Shown here one piece after another: positions 2,093 through 8,461 of a stretch of DNA of 64,000 nucleotides; the stretch's first letter is position 1; every line of letters starts with the position of its first letter. Under the pieces are notes generated by a model. The model was not told where the DNA came from. It was given only the letters and a program-made list of their open reading frames with translations, and ran no database searches. This stretch comes from Bacteroidales bacterium (lineage in GTDB: Bacteria; Bacteroidota; Bacteroidia; Bacteroidales; FEN-979): the NCBI GenBank assembly GCA_030681475.1, contig JAUXWT010000011.1, positions 124,001-188,000 on the forward strand, given 5' to 3'. The translations under genes were made by a program, and so were the position numbers.

Positions 2093-2542
2093 ATGAAAAC
2101 AAACGTAATTATCGCGTCATCCTTTGTAGCGGGTGCGATCATTGGAGCTGCCATCGTATTTATGCTTAGTAATTGCTGTTATAAAACGATTTGCCAGACG
2201 GATCATGATTTCCCGGTGGTGGACACGTCAGCAATCCGCCTGATCTCTGTCCAACAGGCAAATACCTATTTCAATGCATATATGAAGAACCCCGACAGTG
2301 TTGTTCCATTTAAAGCATTTTCGATCAATGCTCAGCAATTTTATGCCATGAAACTCATTGCAGATAATGATACGAGTGTGCATGGATTCAGGATATATAT
2401 GGGAATGGACAACATGAAGGCGGTCAGGATGGTGGTTGGCACCGGCAGTCCGGACATAGTAAAAACCATCTATATCACCGATGAGTCCGGTTCAGGACCC
2501 TGTCCCAGGTTATGCGATGATGAAAGTCCGATCATGGAATAA
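2093..2542 (+). CDS. Hypothetical single-pass membrane protein
   Basis: 149 residues. Residues 5-27 are a strongly hydrophobic signal-anchor rich in Ala, Ile and Gly, followed by Cys residues (SNCCYKTIC) just outside the membrane. The remaining ~115 residues form a soluble, mixed-charge domain ending in a Cys-containing, acidic tail (GPCPRLCDDE). I do not recognise the family. It is divergent from the adenylate cyclase with a shared 115-base promoter region, and convergent with the universal stress gene at 2574. The ATG at 2093 is the only sensible start because it begins the hydrophobic segment. Confidence 0.75.
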   Translation: MKTNVIIASSFVAGAIIGAAIVFMLSNCCYKTICQTDHDFPVVDTSAIRLISVQQANTYFNAYMKNPDSVVPFKAFSINAQQFYAMKLIADNDTSVHGFRIYMGMDNMKAVRMVVGTGSPDIVKTIYITDESGSGPCPRLCDDESPIME

Positions 2543-2573: not shown

Positions 2574-3416
2574 TCAGGCTGTTGTATCGGCCCGGTCGAT
2601 AAACATCACCGGGATCCTGTAAGGATTAAACATCAGCCGTTCATTCCACTCCGATAAATTATAACCAATTGCCTCAGTGGTAGGTATAGCCAGGGTCATG
2701 ACAAGATCTGACTTGTTCGTATTTGCAAAGGAGACTACTTGTTCTGAAAAATCGTTGGGTGATCCTGCAACGTGTGCAGTGAATGAAATTTTCTTTTTCA
2801 GGAAAGCATCAGCGATCTGATGGGATATTCTTGCTATGCGGTTGTTTCTATCAGTATCTGTTTCCAATGCCTGAAAGAGATGGATCTCAGGTTTGAATAA
2901 TTTTCCTAAAAGGAGAGCCCAGTCAATCAGACGTATTGGATACACTTCACTGTTAACGGGAATTAAGATCCGCCGGTAACCTTGATTAAAAGAGCGGTCC
3001 TGAACGACGATCACCGGGCAGGGTGAATCGAGCACCACCCTTAATGCATGGCTGCCGAAAAGATGTTGCAAGCCCTGTTTACCATGGGTGCCCATGACCA
3101 TAAATGCTGGTTTAAGCTCGGCAACCACAGCGTTGATCACTTTAAAAAGGTTACCACTCCTGATCAATGCCTCTGTTTTAACACCATATTGTTGCTCGTA
3201 CTTTGCCTTGCGTTGCAATAAATCCTGTTGTGTGTTCTGAAATGCTGCAGCATGGTCAACCCCGTTTACCCCGTCACCATTATTAAACACATGCAGCAAA
3301 CAAACGCTATAATGGAGTTCCCGTGCAAGTTCCAGTCCATGAACGATGGCATTTTCTGCCACTTCCGAAAAATCTGTTGGTATAAGTATTAACTTGTTTG
3401 TTCTGAATGATTTCAT
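2574..3416 (-). CDS. Universal stress protein, tandem UspA domains
   Basis: 280 residues, about twice one UspA fold. The N-terminal domain (1-140) carries the opening LIPTDFSEVAENA and the ATP-binding G-2x-G-9x-G-S pattern, GTHGKQGL...FGS at 109-122. The second domain (147-278) starts with RRILIPVNSE but lacks a clean nucleotide-binding motif. One ATP-binding and one degenerate domain is common in Bacteroidota Usp pairs. It lies downstream of a second Usp gene (3467-4279) on the same strand, 50 bases away, with its own TATTTTTG promoter element at 3436-3443. The client or stress is not evident. Confidence 0.9.
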   Translation of the reverse strand: MKSFRTNKLILIPTDFSEVAENAIVHGLELARELHYSVCLLHVFNNGDGVNGVDHAAAFQNTQQDLLQRKAKYEQQYGVKTEALIRSGNLFKVINAVVAELKPAFMVMGTHGKQGLQHLFGSHALRVVLDSPCPVIVVQDRSFNQGYRRILIPVNSEVYPIRLIDWALLLGKLFKPEIHLFQALETDTDRNNRIARISHQIADAFLKKKISFTAHVAGSPNDFSEQVVSFANTNKSDLVMTLAIPTTEAIGYNLSEWNERLMFNPYRIPVMFIDRADTTA

Positions 3417-3466: not shown

Positions 3467-4279
3467 TTAATTGCCTGCCTCGCCACCTGCACACAACACC
3501 GGCAGGTGGTCGTCGTTCAACAGCATGGTCTCTTTATAATCCTTCGCCATAAAATAATACTCCTGTGATGCAGCAGACATGATCACAATAGCATCGGCGC
3601 CGATAGTCCGGGCAAATCTGAGTGTTTGCCTGGCATATCCGGGCGAAAAATCATCCTGCTCCTCTTTTATTCTTATCACCCGGACATCATTCTCTTCAAA
3701 TATCCGTTCAGCTTCTTCGATGTTGGTCAACATCTGCTTTGGCCATTCAAAACCAGGTTTAACAATTGAATAGAGATGAACTTCAACATCATATAAACCG
3801 GCGAAAAAAAGTACGGCCTCCACAGCGGCTTGAAAATTTTCATGACTCCCAACCGGAAGCAGGATTTTAGTAAACGATTCAACCACCTGAGTACCTTCCT
3901 GCAAAACCAGAACAGGCATCGGAACTTTAGCCACCAGTTTCAGAATGTCTGCCCCAAAGAGTTTTTGCCGGAGGCTGCTAAAGCCATGCGTTCCGATCAC
4001 CATAAGATCAAAATCCTTCTCGCGTGCCGCGAGGTGGATCATGTCAATGACTTTTCCCTCTCTGATCAATACATCACAGGTTACACCTTCGTTTTGCCTG
4101 AAGTATTCTGCATCTGCCTGCAACTTCCCGGCGCTCTCGCCGGTTGAAGCTGCCTGATGGTCAACCACATGGAATAGTGTTACGGATGAACCGGTCTTCT
4201 TTGCAATGGCAACAGCCTGTTTTACAGCATGATCTCCGGTTTTGGTAAAATCTGTGGGCGCGATAATTTTATTTTTCAT
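3467..4279 (-). CDS. Universal stress protein, tandem UspA domains
   Basis: 270 residues from ATG 4279. I prefer this start because it gives the standard MKNKIIAPTDFTKTGDHA opening; an upstream ATG at 4300 and a TTG at 4303 would place the start on or next to the promoter element. Domain 1 (1-137) has the ATP-binding motif GTHGFSSLRQKLFGAD (96-111), with Ala where the usual motif has Ser/Thr. Domain 2 (145-270) begins KILLPVGSHENF and is more divergent. It is a paralogue of the neighbouring Usp (2574-3416) and is oriented to precede it. Its promoter has both a -33 TTG and a -7 TATTTTTG element. Stress or energy-limitation induction would be usual for the family but is not shown here. Confidence 0.9.
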   Translation of the reverse strand: MKNKIIAPTDFTKTGDHAVKQAVAIAKKTGSSVTLFHVVDHQAASTGESAGKLQADAEYFRQNEGVTCDVLIREGKVIDMIHLAAREKDFDLMVIGTHGFSSLRQKLFGADILKLVAKVPMPVLVLQEGTQVVESFTKILLPVGSHENFQAAVEAVLFFAGLYDVEVHLYSIVKPGFEWPKQMLTNIEEAERIFEENDVRVIRIKEEQDDFSPGYARQTLRFARTIGADAIVIMSAASQEYYFMAKDYKETMLLNDDHLPVLCAGGEAGN

Positions 4280-4380: not shown

Positions 4381-4432
4381 TTTGCGTACTTCTGCGCAAG
4401 GGAAATCGTGATTTTACGCGACGTCAACACGC
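4381..4432 (+). promoter_or_regulatory. Three-element putative operator upstream of the small secreted protein gene
   Basis: TTTGCGTA at 4381, TTTTACGC at 4412 and ACGC at 4429. The same three elements occur upstream of the decayed duplicate at 5768, 5800 and 5816, with the same 48-base span from first to last. The first element opens an imperfect inverted repeat (TTGCG...CGCAA). A LuxR-type response regulator gene lies between the two copies and is a plausible binder; this is inference. Confidence 0.45.
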
Positions 4433-4539
4433 TTGAATTCTTATTAAAATCGGGCATTTCACCGCTTGATATCCCCCCCTGCCAAGTTGTAATTTTACAT
4501 CATCAAATACAAATTATTAACCTTTAAAAAACCAAAACC

Positions 4540-4974
4540 ATGAAAACATTAAAAAATTTCTCCGTTCTCAGTCTTGCACTGATCTTTGCCGCGGTATCTT
4601 CAGCTTATTCCGGCGGTATTGTCCAAAAAAATGAACCGGCGGTTACAAATACCATGATCCGGTATCAGGTCAATGTTCATTTATCCCTGGAAAAACAACT
4701 CTGCAATCTTTGGCTGGTCAAAATCCTTGATCAAAATGGCAGACAAGTGGCTCCTGCAAAGGTGTACACCCCAAGTACAAACAGATACGAATTTTTTGAA
4801 CGCGGTCCTGCTGTTGGTACAAGAATAGCTGTACTTGTCAAGTATCAATATGGCGACCACTATGTTTGCGATACAGAACTTTTCACTGAACCGGCGGTGT
4901 TGACAGGTAAATTTTTAACGGGCCAGACCTACCGTTTTGATCTCTTCCCCAGCTTACAGGCTCCAAAGGAGTAG
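4540..4974 (+). CDS. Small secreted protein of unknown function
   Basis: 144 residues. Residues 1-24 form a Sec signal peptide (MKTLKNFSVLSLALIFAAVS, then SAYSGG). The mature ~120 residues look like a small beta domain with two Cys (QLCNLW and YVCDTE) that could form a disulfide. I do not recognise the family. A degraded second copy of its last ~55 codons lies at 5844-6011, in the same orientation and also followed by a terminator. Its long 5' region carries the shared three-element operator and ends in a GTTGTAATTTTAC sequence near 4488-4500 that may hold a weak -7 element. A strong terminator follows at 5011-5041. Confidence 0.8.
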   Translation: MKTLKNFSVLSLALIFAAVSSAYSGGIVQKNEPAVTNTMIRYQVNVHLSLEKQLCNLWLVKILDQNGRQVAPAKVYTPSTNRYEFFERGPAVGTRIAVLVKYQYGDHYVCDTELFTEPAVLTGKFLTGQTYRFDLFPSLQAPKE

Positions 4975-5010
4975 AAGTTCAGTGGAATAACCAATCAGGT
5001 TGGTTGAAAA

Positions 5011-5041
5011 TCCGTCCCCATGTATCGGGACGGATTTTTTT
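5011..5041 (+). terminator. Rho-independent terminator after the small secreted protein gene
   Basis: Perfect 8-bp stem TCCGTCCC (5011-5018) / GGGACGGA (5027-5034), 8-base loop, then a T run at 5035-5041. It overlaps by two bases the end of the convergent response-regulator gene. A preceding AAAA stretch could let it work partly in both directions. Confidence 0.85.
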
Positions 5042-5681
5042 ACATGATAACAATTTTATTTCGCAGTGCATAAATAACGAGGTTAATCACATTTGCCGAA
5101 CCGGTTTTCTGCAGCAACTTGTTCCTGTATCCCTCCACAGTACGCACGCTGAGGAATATTTTATCCGCAATTTCGCTGTTTGAAAAACCCTTGCACAAAA
5201 AACGGAGCACCTCCATCTCCTTATCGGTAAATACGACTTTCTCAACGGCATCTATCTGCCGTACCTTCTTGACCAGCAATCCCAATATCTCTTCCGAATA
5301 ATATTGTTGTCCGTCAGATACCCTGTTTATCGCCTTTTCAAGATCTTTGATCCCTGATGTTTTTAGGATAAAACCATAAACCCCTTTTTCCACCATGGAA
5401 TAAACATACTCCTCTTCTCCAAACATACTGATCACCAGGATTTTTAAGGACGGATCATATTTCAGCGCCCTATCCGTGGTTTCAAGTCCGTCCATCACCG
5501 GCATCTGGATATCCATCAGGACGATATCCGGCGTCACTTTTTTCAGCTTTTCAAGGAATATCTCCCCGTTTTCGGCTTCGCCAACCAACTCTACATCATC
5601 AATCTCAGCTATGACCCTTTTCAGCCCTTCCCTGAAAATTGCATGGTCTTCGACGATAAAAACCCTTTTTTTTGTTTTCAT
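5040..5681 (-). CDS. NarL/LuxR-family response regulator
   Basis: 213 residues from ATG 5681 (MKTKKRVFIVEDHAIF); a longer GTG-started reading to 5723 runs into the promoter and is less likely. The receiver domain (5-125) has acidic residues ED at 11-12, phospho-acceptor Asp57 in VLMDIQMP and a conserved K in ILKTSG. A C-terminal LuxR-type helix-turn-helix (about 148-210) shows FSNSEIADKIFLSVRTVEGY. The PAS histidine kinase at 6061-7419, same strand and upstream, is the obvious partner, although a 380-base gap with its own promoter separates them. It probably regulates the operator-like repeats at 4381 and 5763 on either side of it; this is inferred from position. Confidence 0.9.
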   Translation of the reverse strand: MKTKKRVFIVEDHAIFREGLKRVIAEIDDVELVGEAENGEIFLEKLKKVTPDIVLMDIQMPVMDGLETTDRALKYDPSLKILVISMFGEEEYVYSMVEKGVYGFILKTSGIKDLEKAINRVSDGQQYYSEEILGLLVKKVRQIDAVEKVVFTDKEMEVLRFLCKGFSNSEIADKIFLSVRTVEGYRNKLLQKTGSANVINLVIYALRNKIVIM

Positions 5682-5712
5682 CAGTTCAATCTTTTGTGGT
5701 ATTAAATCATGC

Positions 5713-5743
5713 GAAAGATACACTAATTAAATATTTTTTGCAA
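5713..5743 (-). promoter_or_regulatory. Promoter for the response regulator (-33 TTG, 20-base spacer, TATCTTTC)
   Basis: Minus strand: TTG at 5743-5741, 20-base spacer, TATCTTTC at 5720-5713, one mismatch from TAnnTTTG. It lies 32 bases upstream of the ATG at 5681 and supports transcription independent of the kinase gene. Confidence 0.45.
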
Positions 5744-5762
5744 TGACAACGTGGGTTTTATT

Positions 5763-5819
5763 TACGTTTTGCGTAGAAATACGCCGGACATCATGTACGT
5801 TTTACGCAAATAAAAACGC
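5763..5819 (+). promoter_or_regulatory. Putative operator, duplicate of the 4381 element
   Basis: TACGTTTTGCGTA (5763-5775) and TACGTTTTACGCA (5796-5808) are near-identical and 33 bases apart, about three helical turns; ACGC follows at 5816. GCGTA-GAAA-TACGC (5771-5784) is a perfect inverted repeat. The order and overall spacing match the region upstream of the intact gene at 4540. The element sits between the response regulator promoter and the relic, so it could serve as an autoregulatory site. Confidence 0.45.
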
Positions 5820-5843
5820 AAAAAGTATCTAATAATCAGGTAA

Positions 5844-6011
5844 TTCAGTCCTCGAAATGCCTTGCTGGTACTTGTACCGGTGCACAGCCATTTCTCCTGC
5901 GAAACGGAATTATTCACTGCTCCGGCCATCCTCACAGGCAAGTTTACACCTGGTCAGACCTGCCGTTATGATCTGTACCCGCAATCGCAACCTTTCAAAG
6001 AACAGGCATAA
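5844..6011 (+). pseudogene. Decayed duplicate of the small secreted protein gene at 4540-4974
   Basis: The frame 5844-6011 reads as a homologue of the C-terminal ~55 residues of the 4540 protein: LVLV, then CETELFT, PAILTGKF, GQTCRYDLYP, against VLV, CDTELFT, PAVLTGKF, GQTYRFDLFP in the intact copy. An in-frame TAA at 5841-5843 and the absence of a signal peptide or N-terminal half show that it is a remnant. It keeps the upstream operator-like elements and a downstream terminator, so a whole transcription unit was duplicated and one copy lost its 5' coding half. Transcription may persist. Confidence 0.8.
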
Positions 6012-6032
6012 AGGAGTTTGCAACAGCAGCAT

Positions 6033-6062
6033 AAGGCCGGGGTTCTCATCCCGGCTTTTTTT
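6033..6062 (+). terminator. Rho-independent terminator after the decayed duplicate
   Basis: Stem GCCGGG (6036-6041) / CCCGGC (6050-6055), 8-base loop, T run from 6056. It also lies at the 3' end of the convergent histidine kinase gene, which stops at 6061. Confidence 0.8.
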
Positions 6063-7419
6063 ATATATCCTTCCTGATCTTCACCTCCACCTTCCCCTTC
6101 CGGTTCACAAACCGGATTTTTGCATCAATGAGGTTTACGCGCTGTATGATGTTTCCAACGCCCATGCCTCCGGATTTTTGCTTTACTTCATTGATATCAT
6201 ACCCCTTGCCATTATCGGTATAGTTCAATGTCAAAATTCCTTTTGAATAATTTAACTTGACAATGGCGTTGGTGGCTCCGGCATGTTTGACCGTATTGTT
6301 GATTAACTCGCAAATGATCCTGTAAAAATGCAACTCCGTCTGTTTCTGAAAATGCCGGCCCTTCAGGTTGGAGATGAAATTTATCGAGAATACCCCATCA
6401 AGCTGCATGGTTTTTACAAACGAGTTTACGGCAGCTTCAAGTCCGTAATTTTCAATCAGACGAGGCATCAGGTTGTTGGCGACCAGCCTCATTTTCGCAA
6501 TGGCTTCTGTCAATTGCCCGGTACATATGGCAAGGGTTTCGGTAAATTTCTCAGGTGTTTTGGAATATTCAAGCAGGCCCAGGTGCAATTTGATGCTTGA
6601 CAGGGTGGGGCCAAGGTCATCATGGAGGTCTGCTGCAAATTGTTTGCGGTCCTTTTCTTCGGTCTCGATCACCCTGCCCAGCACATATTTCTCAAGATGT
6701 TTCCTTTCGGTGATGTCTATCAAAATGGTCATCACGGCATCCTCTCCTTTATATTTGATTTTACTGTTCCTGATCAGGAAATTCTTGATGACGACCTTCC
6801 TGTTCTCTGTCCTGATCTCAAATTCTTCCTCTTCAACAAAGGCAGTGGCAGACAAGTTTTTGAACACCGCCCTGTTTTTAGTATCTGCCGGGTCGGTTAA
6901 TAACGCAGCAGCATTTTTCCCTATAATTTCATCTTTCGTATAACCGGTTATTTCCAGGATCAGATCATTGGCAAAAACCACATTCCCGTCGATATGGATC
7001 AGGATCGGATTCGGCAGTTGATTGACCAGGGTCCTGTATAACGCTTCGCTGTCGCGCAGCGACTCCTCAACCCGTTTTTGCCCGGCGAGATCTTTTAGTA
7101 TATATACATCAACGGACTTGTTTTCAAGATTCGCTGACAGAACAGACACAAGATATGGACAGATGATCCCACTGCTGTTTTTGAGCTGTATTTCACTGTT
7201 GGCAGCGCTTTTAGACTTGACCATGAACAGATTGGCGACCTCTTCTGGGAAAACCTGATCAACAGGCATTCCCGTAACATTGTGAAGGGGGATTGCTATA
7301 AGGTCACAAAAAGCCTGGTTGGCCAGCACAAAACATTTCTTGCTGTCCAATGCAAATATGGGATCCGGGATCGAATTAAAAACCCCGGGAAGTAATCCGG
7401 TTACGGCAATGGGTTTCAT
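6061..7419 (-). CDS. PAS-domain sensor histidine kinase (HisKA_3/NarX type)
   Basis: 452 residues from ATG 7419 (MKPIAVTG); the longer reading would overlap pfkA. There is no transmembrane segment, so it should be cytoplasmic. Two PAS domains occupy about 8-110 and 120-240; the second ends with the typical DITERK. The dimerisation/phosphoacceptor segment FAADLHDDLGPTLSSIKLHL carries His266 of the HisKA_3 class. The ATPase domain follows, with the N-box ELINNTVKHAGA and the G motifs DNGKGYD and GGMGVGNI. HisKA_3 kinases pair with LuxR-type regulators such as the one at 5040-5681. It begins 19 bases after pfkA and is probably co-transcribed with it. The PAS ligand is not evident. Confidence 0.92.
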   Translation of the reverse strand: MKPIAVTGLLPGVFNSIPDPIFALDSKKCFVLANQAFCDLIAIPLHNVTGMPVDQVFPEEVANLFMVKSKSAANSEIQLKNSSGIICPYLVSVLSANLENKSVDVYILKDLAGQKRVEESLRDSEALYRTLVNQLPNPILIHIDGNVVFANDLILEITGYTKDEIIGKNAAALLTDPADTKNRAVFKNLSATAFVEEEEFEIRTENRKVVIKNFLIRNSKIKYKGEDAVMTILIDITERKHLEKYVLGRVIETEEKDRKQFAADLHDDLGPTLSSIKLHLGLLEYSKTPEKFTETLAICTGQLTEAIAKMRLVANNLMPRLIENYGLEAAVNSFVKTMQLDGVFSINFISNLKGRHFQKQTELHFYRIICELINNTVKHAGATNAIVKLNYSKGILTLNYTDNGKGYDINEVKQKSGGMGVGNIIQRVNLIDAKIRFVNRKGKVEVKIRKDI

Positions 7420-7438
7420 CTTTAAAAAAATGCAAAGA

Positions 7439-8461
7439 TCAACGTTTCTCTTTCCCAAAACACACATCCATCTTACGGGCTTTTTCGATCAATGGATGAT
7501 CTTCGGGAACGAGCCTTAGCTTTCCGCCAACTTCGGCAAGGGGAACCGAGGTAACAACGCTGCCTTTGAGGGCAACCATCTCTCCGAACCTCTTTTGGGC
7601 GATCAACTCTACTGCGGAAGCGCCGTACCGGGTGGCAAGTACGCGATCCATCGGTGAGGGGCTTCCTCCGCGCTGGATGTATCCCAGGATGGTCTCCCTG
7701 GTTTCGAGGCCGGTGAGTTCCTTGATGCTGTTTGAAATATAACGTGCGGCCGTTTCACCTTTGGGCGTAGGGATTCCTTCGGCGACCACGACGATGGAAT
7801 ATGGTTTTTTATTGATGGCGCGTTTTTTCAGGCACCGGGCAACCTGGTTGATGTCGAAATCAATTTCGGGCAGCAGGATCACATCGCCGCCGCTTGCCAT
7901 TCCCGAGTAGAGGGCAAGCCATCCGGCATGATGTCCCATCACTTCGATCACCATGATGCGTTTGTGGCTGTTGGCGGTGGTATGAAGCCGGTCGATGGCT
8001 TCGGTGGCGATCCACAATGCCGAATCAAAACCAAAGGTGACATCGGTTCCCCACACATCGTTGTCGATGGTTTTCGGGATGCCGATCACGTTCAGGCCAA
8101 CCTCCGAAAGCTGGGCCGCCGTTCGCTGGGTTCCGTTGCCCCCAATGCAAACCAGGGCATCCAGTCCAAGTTCCTGGTAATGTTTCTTGATCAGTTTTGG
8201 CTTGTCAATGGCATTGAAGGTGTTGCTTTTCTTGAACGGGTTTTCCCTTGATGTTCCCAGGATGGTACCTCCCAGCGTAAGGATCCCCGAAAGAAGGGTT
8301 TCATCCAGTTCGACATACTCCTCATTGATCAGTCCGAGGAACCCCGATGAGATGCCGATCACCTCCATTCCATACTCAAGAATCGCTGTTTTTCCAACGC
8401 CCCTGATGGCTGCATTGATACCGGGACAATCGCCGCCGGCCGTTAATATGCCAATTCGCAT
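7439..8461 (-). CDS. pfkA: 6-phosphofructokinase, group III-like
   Basis: 340 residues, usual length. It phosphorylates fructose-6-phosphate in glycolysis. The opening MRIGILTAGGDCPGINA is the nucleotide-binding loop. The catalytic PKTIDND (129-135) supplies the catalytic Asp, and MGHHAGW binds substrate. The phosphoryl-donor determinants are mixed. GGNGT (107-111) keeps the Gly of ATP enzymes where PPi enzymes have Asp, but has Asn where E. coli PfkA has metal-binding Asp103. Lys130 replaces the Gly of classical ATP enzymes. ATP is more likely, but the donor cannot be settled from sequence. It is the third gene of a leftward run, 10 bases after the coiled-coil gene and 19 before the kinase. 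Confidence 0.93.
   Translation of the reverse strand: MRIGILTAGGDCPGINAAIRGVGKTAILEYGMEVIGISSGFLGLINEEYVELDETLLSGILTLGGTILGTSRENPFKKSNTFNAIDKPKLIKKHYQELGLDALVCIGGNGTQRTAAQLSEVGLNVIGIPKTIDNDVWGTDVTFGFDSALWIATEAIDRLHTTANSHKRIMVIEVMGHHAGWLALYSGMASGGDVILLPEIDFDINQVARCLKKRAINKKPYSIVVVAEGIPTPKGETAARYISNSIKELTGLETRETILGYIQRGGSPSPMDRVLATRYGASAVELIAQKRFGEMVALKGSVVTSVPLAEVGGKLRLVPEDHPLIEKARKMDVCFGKEKR

Follow-up and report, generated by a model that had tools for sequence, protein, structure and literature searches.

Among described systems, the closest to the one considered here is that of BvgA, a NarL-family response regulator of Bordetella. The portion of the published account available to us describes BvgA as binding in head-to-head dimers whose centres lie 22 bp, or two helical turns, apart, with the nearest dimer abutting the -35 element, and in one case as occupying one strong site together with weaker ones (PMC7250471). 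At Pfha and related promoters the dimer site is a 14 bp inverted repeat and the repeats follow one another at two-turn steps of 22 bp, and both traits are shared by the promoters described below (PMC7250471, in the part available). Within the same regulator family, the accessible part of the work on the Escherichia coli NarL/ogt promoter also places more than one site upstream of one promoter, as some promoters here do (PMC7419079). For the core promoter the relevant comparison is the Bacteroides sigma-ABfr consensus, given in the available section of its source as TTTG at -33 and TAnnTTTG at -7 (PMC7366714); the promoters here likewise have TTG at the end of a conserved box and TAnnTTT at the usual distance.

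The locus analysed here lies in the genome of a Bacteroidales bacterium, and the window is the whole 64,000-nucleotide stretch that was examined. The feature of interest is a phased-palindrome promoter class belonging to a regulon of small secreted proteins, most likely, judging from sequence comparison, with the adjacent two-component system as controller. Phased palindromes combined with a NarL-type regulator are a kind of promoter already known (cf. BvgA), of which this is another member. Inverted repeats at approximately 22-bp steps from the promoter were found for every palindrome scored at promoters with box and -7 element in two analyses (36/36 and 45/45). The system differs from BvgA in its phylum, in its half-site (GCGTA/TACGC) and in its -33/-7 promoter type, and its sites are predicted ones, known from sequence alone. 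Unlike at BvgA promoters, most promoters here have a single clear site, and its position shifts by whole steps. The nearest BvgA site abuts the -35 element (PMC7250471, in the part available); here a box lies one step downstream and matches the half-sites at a mean of 5.2/10 letters. The promoters are also unlike those of sigma-ABfr in that a long conserved box extends over the region just upstream of -33.

Genes and predicted sites of the locus

The leftmost gene of the locus is a small hypothetical gene (2093-2542, plus strand), followed on the minus strand by universal stress protein genes b (2574..3416, Usp E 6.7e-27) and a (3467..4279, Usp E 1.6e-24), the latter divergent from SSP1 and found in the locus in relatives too. 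SSP1 (4540..4974, plus strand) is an open reading frame for a 144-aa small secreted protein of a lineage-specific multigene family, the SSP family, and its N-terminus suggests an export signal. Next comes the NarL/LuxR-type response regulator (5040..5681, minus strand), the candidate binder of the palindrome, identified by Pfam matches to a receiver domain (Response_reg, E 2.4e-25, residues 7-119) and a C-terminal helix-turn-helix (GerE/LuxR, E 1.2e-12, residues 150-205). Beyond it lie a relic of a second secreted-protein gene, SSP2 (5850..6012, plus strand), of which the C-terminal part alone is recognisable (query residues 94-143 matched at 54% identity), and a sensor histidine kinase (6061..7467, minus strand) with two PAS stretches, HisKA_3 and HATPase_c by Pfam. 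The kinase is also near the regulator in relatives and, to judge from these sequences, is likely its partner. Related genomes preserve much of this layout, and orthologues of the regulator within the genus are 84-91% identical. Its best full-length sequence match among solved structures is VraR, another NarL-family protein (E 2.6e-36), with which domain order alone is shared, by sequence. The half-sites and signals of E. coli NarL differ from those here. Compared with the named NarL-family equivalogs (MctR, NarL, GacA and others), the regulator scored best against MctR, at 146 bits versus a cut-off of 300, and all 25 listed of the 101 matches were below cut-off. As a separate observation, the small gene at 2093-2542 is found together with the universal stress genes in most relatives, and a second copy (L142:1360-1683, 33% identical) lies approximately 2.4 kb upstream in this genome.

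The original prediction had described a duplicated three-part operator of fixed spacing on either side of the regulator gene. Its words are located where it placed them, TTTGCGTA at 4381 and 5768, TTTTACGC at 4412 and 5800 and ACGC at 4429 and 5816, and the Pfam domains bear out that a response regulator lies between the two copies. The arrangement TTTGCGTA-N15..35-TTTTACGC occurs at just two places in the window and at none in each of 100 shuffles; the same two are its only occurrences in the organism's own 4.24-Mb genome, where a reversed control gave 0. The spacing agrees in its 48-base sum and disagrees in its inner steps, 31+17 for the first site against 32+16 for the second.

Upstream of SSP1, the palindromic site GCGTACTTCTGCGC (4384..4397, plus strand) takes in the first TTTGCGTA, matches 9/10 half-site letters and stands 51 nt before the box, inside the phase window of 50-52. 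A weaker second in-phase site, TCGTGATTTTACGC (4406..4419, plus strand; 8/10 letters), holds TTTTACGC and stands 29 nt before the box. The promoter-proximal box itself, ATCGGGCATTTCACCGCTTGA (4449..4469, plus strand), has one mismatch to the pattern and the TTG of -33 at its end; with up to 3 mismatches the pattern occurs at three places in the organism's genome, of which this is one, and at 0 in the control. The -7 element TAATTTTA (4490..4497, plus strand) has a position relative to the box that related promoters share. The ACGC at 4429..4432 (plus strand) is not conserved, the word being found at the equivalent place, 15-17 nt before the downstream box, in just 3/36 related promoters.

Between the regulator gene and the SSP2 relic, the palindromic site GCGTAGAAATACGC (5771..5784, plus strand) takes in the second TTTGCGTA and matches all 10/10 half-site letters. 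It stands 50 nt before the decayed SSP2 box ATCAGGTAATTCAGTCCTCGA (5835..5855, plus strand), which keeps 16/21 letters, and 27 nt from the -33 element of the predicted promoter of the regulator gene (5713..5743, minus strand). That promoter consists of a -33 TTG and the -7 element TATCTTTC and is kept in 7/7 genomes with a divergent SSP2/regulator region. The second TTTTACGC (5800..5807, plus strand) corresponds to a right half-site only, in phase at 27 nt before the box remnant.

Palindromes phased to a promoter box

In relatives, the unit upstream of SSP genes consists of the 14-bp palindrome GCGTA-N4-TACGC, a 21-bp box (ATCAGGCATTTCAGCGCTTGA), 18 nt and a -7 element, with the box running into a Bacteroidota -33/-7 promoter so that TTG stands at its end. 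The distances from palindrome to box are 6, 27-29, 50-52 or 73-75 nt, for which the best period is 22.4-22.5 bp. The conserved feature is a palindrome whose distance to the promoter is quantised in steps of approximately 22 bp; each promoter has one recognisable site or two, and no third element is fixed. It is this unit of palindrome, downstream 21-bp box and -7 element that the rigid three-part description had overlooked. The idea of a real regulator site is supported, as a site serving a secreted-protein unit and a relic around a LuxR-type regulator; a three-part operator with conserved spacing is wrong in detail. The comparison of orthologous loci, which could have refuted the idea, came out in its favour: in relatives the palindrome precedes SSP1, SSP2 and additional copies.

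The phase was assessed on the 43 SSP promoters of genomes carrying the regulator, of which 39 have the box and 36 also a good -7 element; the 36 were used and the remaining 7/43 (4 lacking the box, 3 whose -7 is weak) were excluded. Palindromes were called at 8/10 or more half-site letters within 110 nt, and the phase windows cover 15 of the 111 offsets. At least one palindrome is present in 32/36 promoters (4 have none) and a second in-phase one in 4/36, and all 36 palindromes found (36/36) lie in the phase windows. After dinucleotide shuffling of these upstream sequences, a round yielded on average 1.47 palindromes over all promoters, whether in phase or not, and at most 5 in 100 rounds. One contig that apparently appears twice (G022 contig 189 and L007, of equal length) was counted once. 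Related promoters are not independent draws, and we therefore place more weight on orthologous promoters at different steps: SSP1 orthologues have the palindrome at 29 or 51 nt and SSP2 orthologues at 27 or 50 nt, one step apart, as expected of a selected phase.

A search with the box only (up to 3 mismatches, palindrome ignored) across the 43 genomes of the family returned 67 sites, 55 of them in the 12 genomes whose regulator is 70% identical or more and the other 12 in the remaining genomes; the reversed control gave 2 matches in total. A TAnnTTTG-like -7 element approximately 20 bp after TTG follows 47/55 sites in the regulator-bearing genomes versus 0/12 elsewhere, and the latter 12 sites also have no palindrome of 8 or more letters (0/12). 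Within the 47, 42/47 have a palindrome (5/47 lack one of at least 8 letters) and 45/45 palindromes are in phase. Among the 8 box sites without a -7 element in these genomes, one has palindromes, at 6 nt (in phase) and at 99 nt (outside the windows). Many of the 55 sites are the SSP promoters in which the layout was first noticed, and the truly new ones are those of other genes.

These other genes encode non-SSP secreted-protein families whose promoters have the identical layout, with the palindrome at 6, 29 or 51 nt. One is a secreted family of approximately 160 residues (L169, L170, L172, L273, L274), another comprises small secreted proteins built from repeats of APVTPxEATF-like words (L167, L168, L277, L280, L282), and L286, a longer protein predicted to be exported, has the same promoter class. 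In L275 the first step is occupied by a 13-letter variant of the palindrome, which the 14-letter score missed. At L171:3795-4125 a near-identical repeat run (GGACCCCGTCAGGGTGATG-like) ends directly before a perfect palindrome GCGTAAAAATACGC.

The palindrome stands out only in this context, as it is not enriched genome-wide over the reversed control. Used alone as a genome-wide marker (GCGTAANNNTACGC) it was found in 17/43 genomes, but the reversed control was as frequent or more so in many of them, and the marker was rejected. A half-site-plus-box pattern, TACGCN4-7RTCRGGCA, matched 233/393 genomes of the order and was too short to be informative. Universal stress gene a was considered as a co-target and also set aside, the palindrome being at no fixed distance to it.

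The regulator as the probable binding protein

We regard it as probable that these promoters belong to a family-specific two-component regulon in which dimers of the response regulator, on phased palindromes, activate small secreted-protein promoters. The PAS histidine kinase (6061-7467) would phosphorylate the NarL-type regulator (5040-5681), whose dimers would bind the 14-bp GCGTA-N4-TACGC. With the palindrome placed a whole number of steps of approximately 22 bp (two helical turns) ahead of a box adjoining or overlapping -33, the dimers would thus lie on one face of the DNA, aligned with RNA polymerase, and would activate small secreted-protein promoters including that of SSP1. As the phased layout, with its one good palindrome, in some promoters a second in phase, and a box faintly like the site, is close to that of BvgA, we propose that cooperative regulator dimers extend on one DNA face toward RNA polymerase, with extra dimers on weak intermediate sites. 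The palindrome at 5771-5784 would serve two directions, formerly SSP2 and, by autoregulation, the regulator gene itself. The palindrome and box, their phasing, their use by several secreted-protein families, the co-occurrence with the regulator and the constant gap on its side are observed. The parts played by the regulator as binder, by activation rather than repression, by autoregulation and by extra dimers on weak sites are those that we infer from the arrangement of the sequences.

A possible though doubtful alternative is that two proteins act at each promoter, the response regulator at the palindrome and, at the box, another activator or a special sigma factor. A -33 element would need far less length and conservation than the box shows, and the likeness of the box to the palindrome half-sites at the in-phase place is weak (mean 5.2/10). 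Its position argues the other way, however, for it lies one step (approximately 23 bp) closer to the promoter than the nearest palindrome position, and a weak proximal dimer is to be expected there by analogy with BvgA promoters (PMC7250471).

The co-occurrence of regulator and layout bears on the identity of the binder. The layout is present in all 12 genomes with a regulator of at least 70% identity and in 0 of the other 31 genomes of the family; G034, whose regulator is 62% identical, has no box site. Genus g4 includes four genomes that have SSP genes without such a regulator (best other match 47%), and there the box was found in 0/12 of the SSP promoters examined, which represent 12 of 14 listed SSP matches, several with an uncertain start codon. 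A genome of the same genus that does carry the regulator, G033, has box promoters. The regulator, kinase, SSP family and motif have a common history, so that their co-occurrence is not many-fold independent, and the informative contrast, SSP present and regulator absent, is confined to this one genus. Binding of the palindrome by the adjacent regulator is plausible and fits the co-occurrence.

The region between SSP2 and the regulator gene gives a second line of evidence. In 7/7 genomes with this divergent region the gap from palindrome to the regulator's -33 is constant, at 27, 27, 27, 27, 27, 26 and 27 nt, although the spacer letters on that side average just 43% identity, and the gap on the SSP2 side shifts by one step in 2 of the 7. 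The operator is missing before the regulator gene in G017 and G020, which have no SSP2 and in which the regulator directly follows the kinase, and also in G027 and G028, so autoregulation would not be general.

The genomes in which the regulator gene lacks the operator would also agree with an unlikely reading in which the palindrome is a real operator of a secreted-protein regulon bound by another transcription factor, encoded elsewhere, with the response regulator as a neighbour or target. Against this, the regulator is the gene with a DNA-binding domain among the conserved locus genes examined, the layout occurs in 12/12 genomes with the regulator at 70% identity or more and in 0 of 31 others, the gap to its promoter is 26-27 nt in 7/7, and a two-turn repeat is used by the NarL family in a known case, that of BvgA, as far as the accessible part of the report goes (PMC7250471). 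Inherited similarity, through duplication of genes together with their upstream DNA, finds some support in the many promoters that precede paralogous genes of a single family; it is contradicted by jumps of approximately 22 bp between orthologues while the intervening DNA diverges and by the layout being common to unrelated secreted-protein families, and we consider it very improbable. A chance likeness of two short words, each of just 8 letters and with a third element that is not conserved, has a negligible probability and is refuted by 0 occurrences in 100 shuffles, only 2 in the genome and 45/45 palindromes in phase in the box search.

A search with the regulator protein over the order (E 1e-60 or lower) matched 12/393 genomes, and identity above 60% was found only within the window's own family, so the regulon is not traceable further out. 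The SSP genes of the regulator-less g4 genomes (L156, L157, L158, L162, L164, L166) have other conserved upstream words, such as CCGCAAAA and CTCCGCAGGGATCA followed by TATAATTTTGT or TATACCTTTGT, which are perhaps the promoter class of another regulator.

Remains of SSP2 and the secreted products

The original prediction had taken the second site to precede a relic of a duplicated gene. A C-terminal remnant of a second copy does follow that site, but it is not a recent duplicate. Over its 50 residues the relic is identical to the best three SSP2 proteins of other genomes at 36, 35 and 35 positions versus 28 for the neighbouring SSP1, and being nearer to the former it is the remains of an old gene; this kinship is a matter of pairwise identity, tree support inside the SSP1/SSP2 group being low. 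An intact SSP2 adjoins the regulator in six relatives (G013, G014, G016, G018, G022, G025). The relic has no -7 element, start codon or approximately the first 93 codons, and its palindrome is still at 10/10 with the box decayed to 16/21. These remains suggest that the -7 element and the N-terminal part were deleted here, while the palindrome and the promoter of the regulator gene were retained.

Relatives of the SSP proteins occur in 16/43 genomes of the family, and scans of SSP proteins against Pfam and NCBIfam gave nothing above threshold. The predicted structure of SSP1 combines an N-terminal helix with a beta-rich domain (mean pLDDT 83). A fold search with this model gave no match at E 0.001 or lower, the top ones being mostly pilin or CnaB-like beta domains (TM approximately 0.3-0.45); with no convincing structural relative, no function is claimed. 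In the other families of the promoter class, no Pfam match was found for the two APVTPxEATF-like proteins scanned (L167, L168) or for the two scanned members of the 160-residue family (L170, L172). The latter family has a conserved SDLVFSGTV-like stretch, which may resemble that of TIMP-like domains.

In the portions of the literature that our search returned, neither the palindrome GCGTAAAAATACGC nor an account of this regulon was found. On balance we favour the view that this is an undescribed two-component regulon confined to one bacterial family, with a NarL-type regulator, several unrelated families of small secreted proteins and palindromes that move exactly one two-turn step between orthologues. 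If this is true, the promoters would preserve, from natural evolution, the trace of selection on helical phasing. The step-wise movement of sites among orthologues offers an unusually clean comparative case for selection on helical phase, beyond the presence of a site. The palindrome also makes this small secreted-protein regulon traceable by sequence and provides a testable binding sequence for an uncharacterised regulator. A second regulator/kinase pair is found in G025 (regulator 65% identical; L141:4455-5084) with a related palindrome, GTGTATTTTTACAC, upstream, and may represent a paralogous system whose site has shifted.
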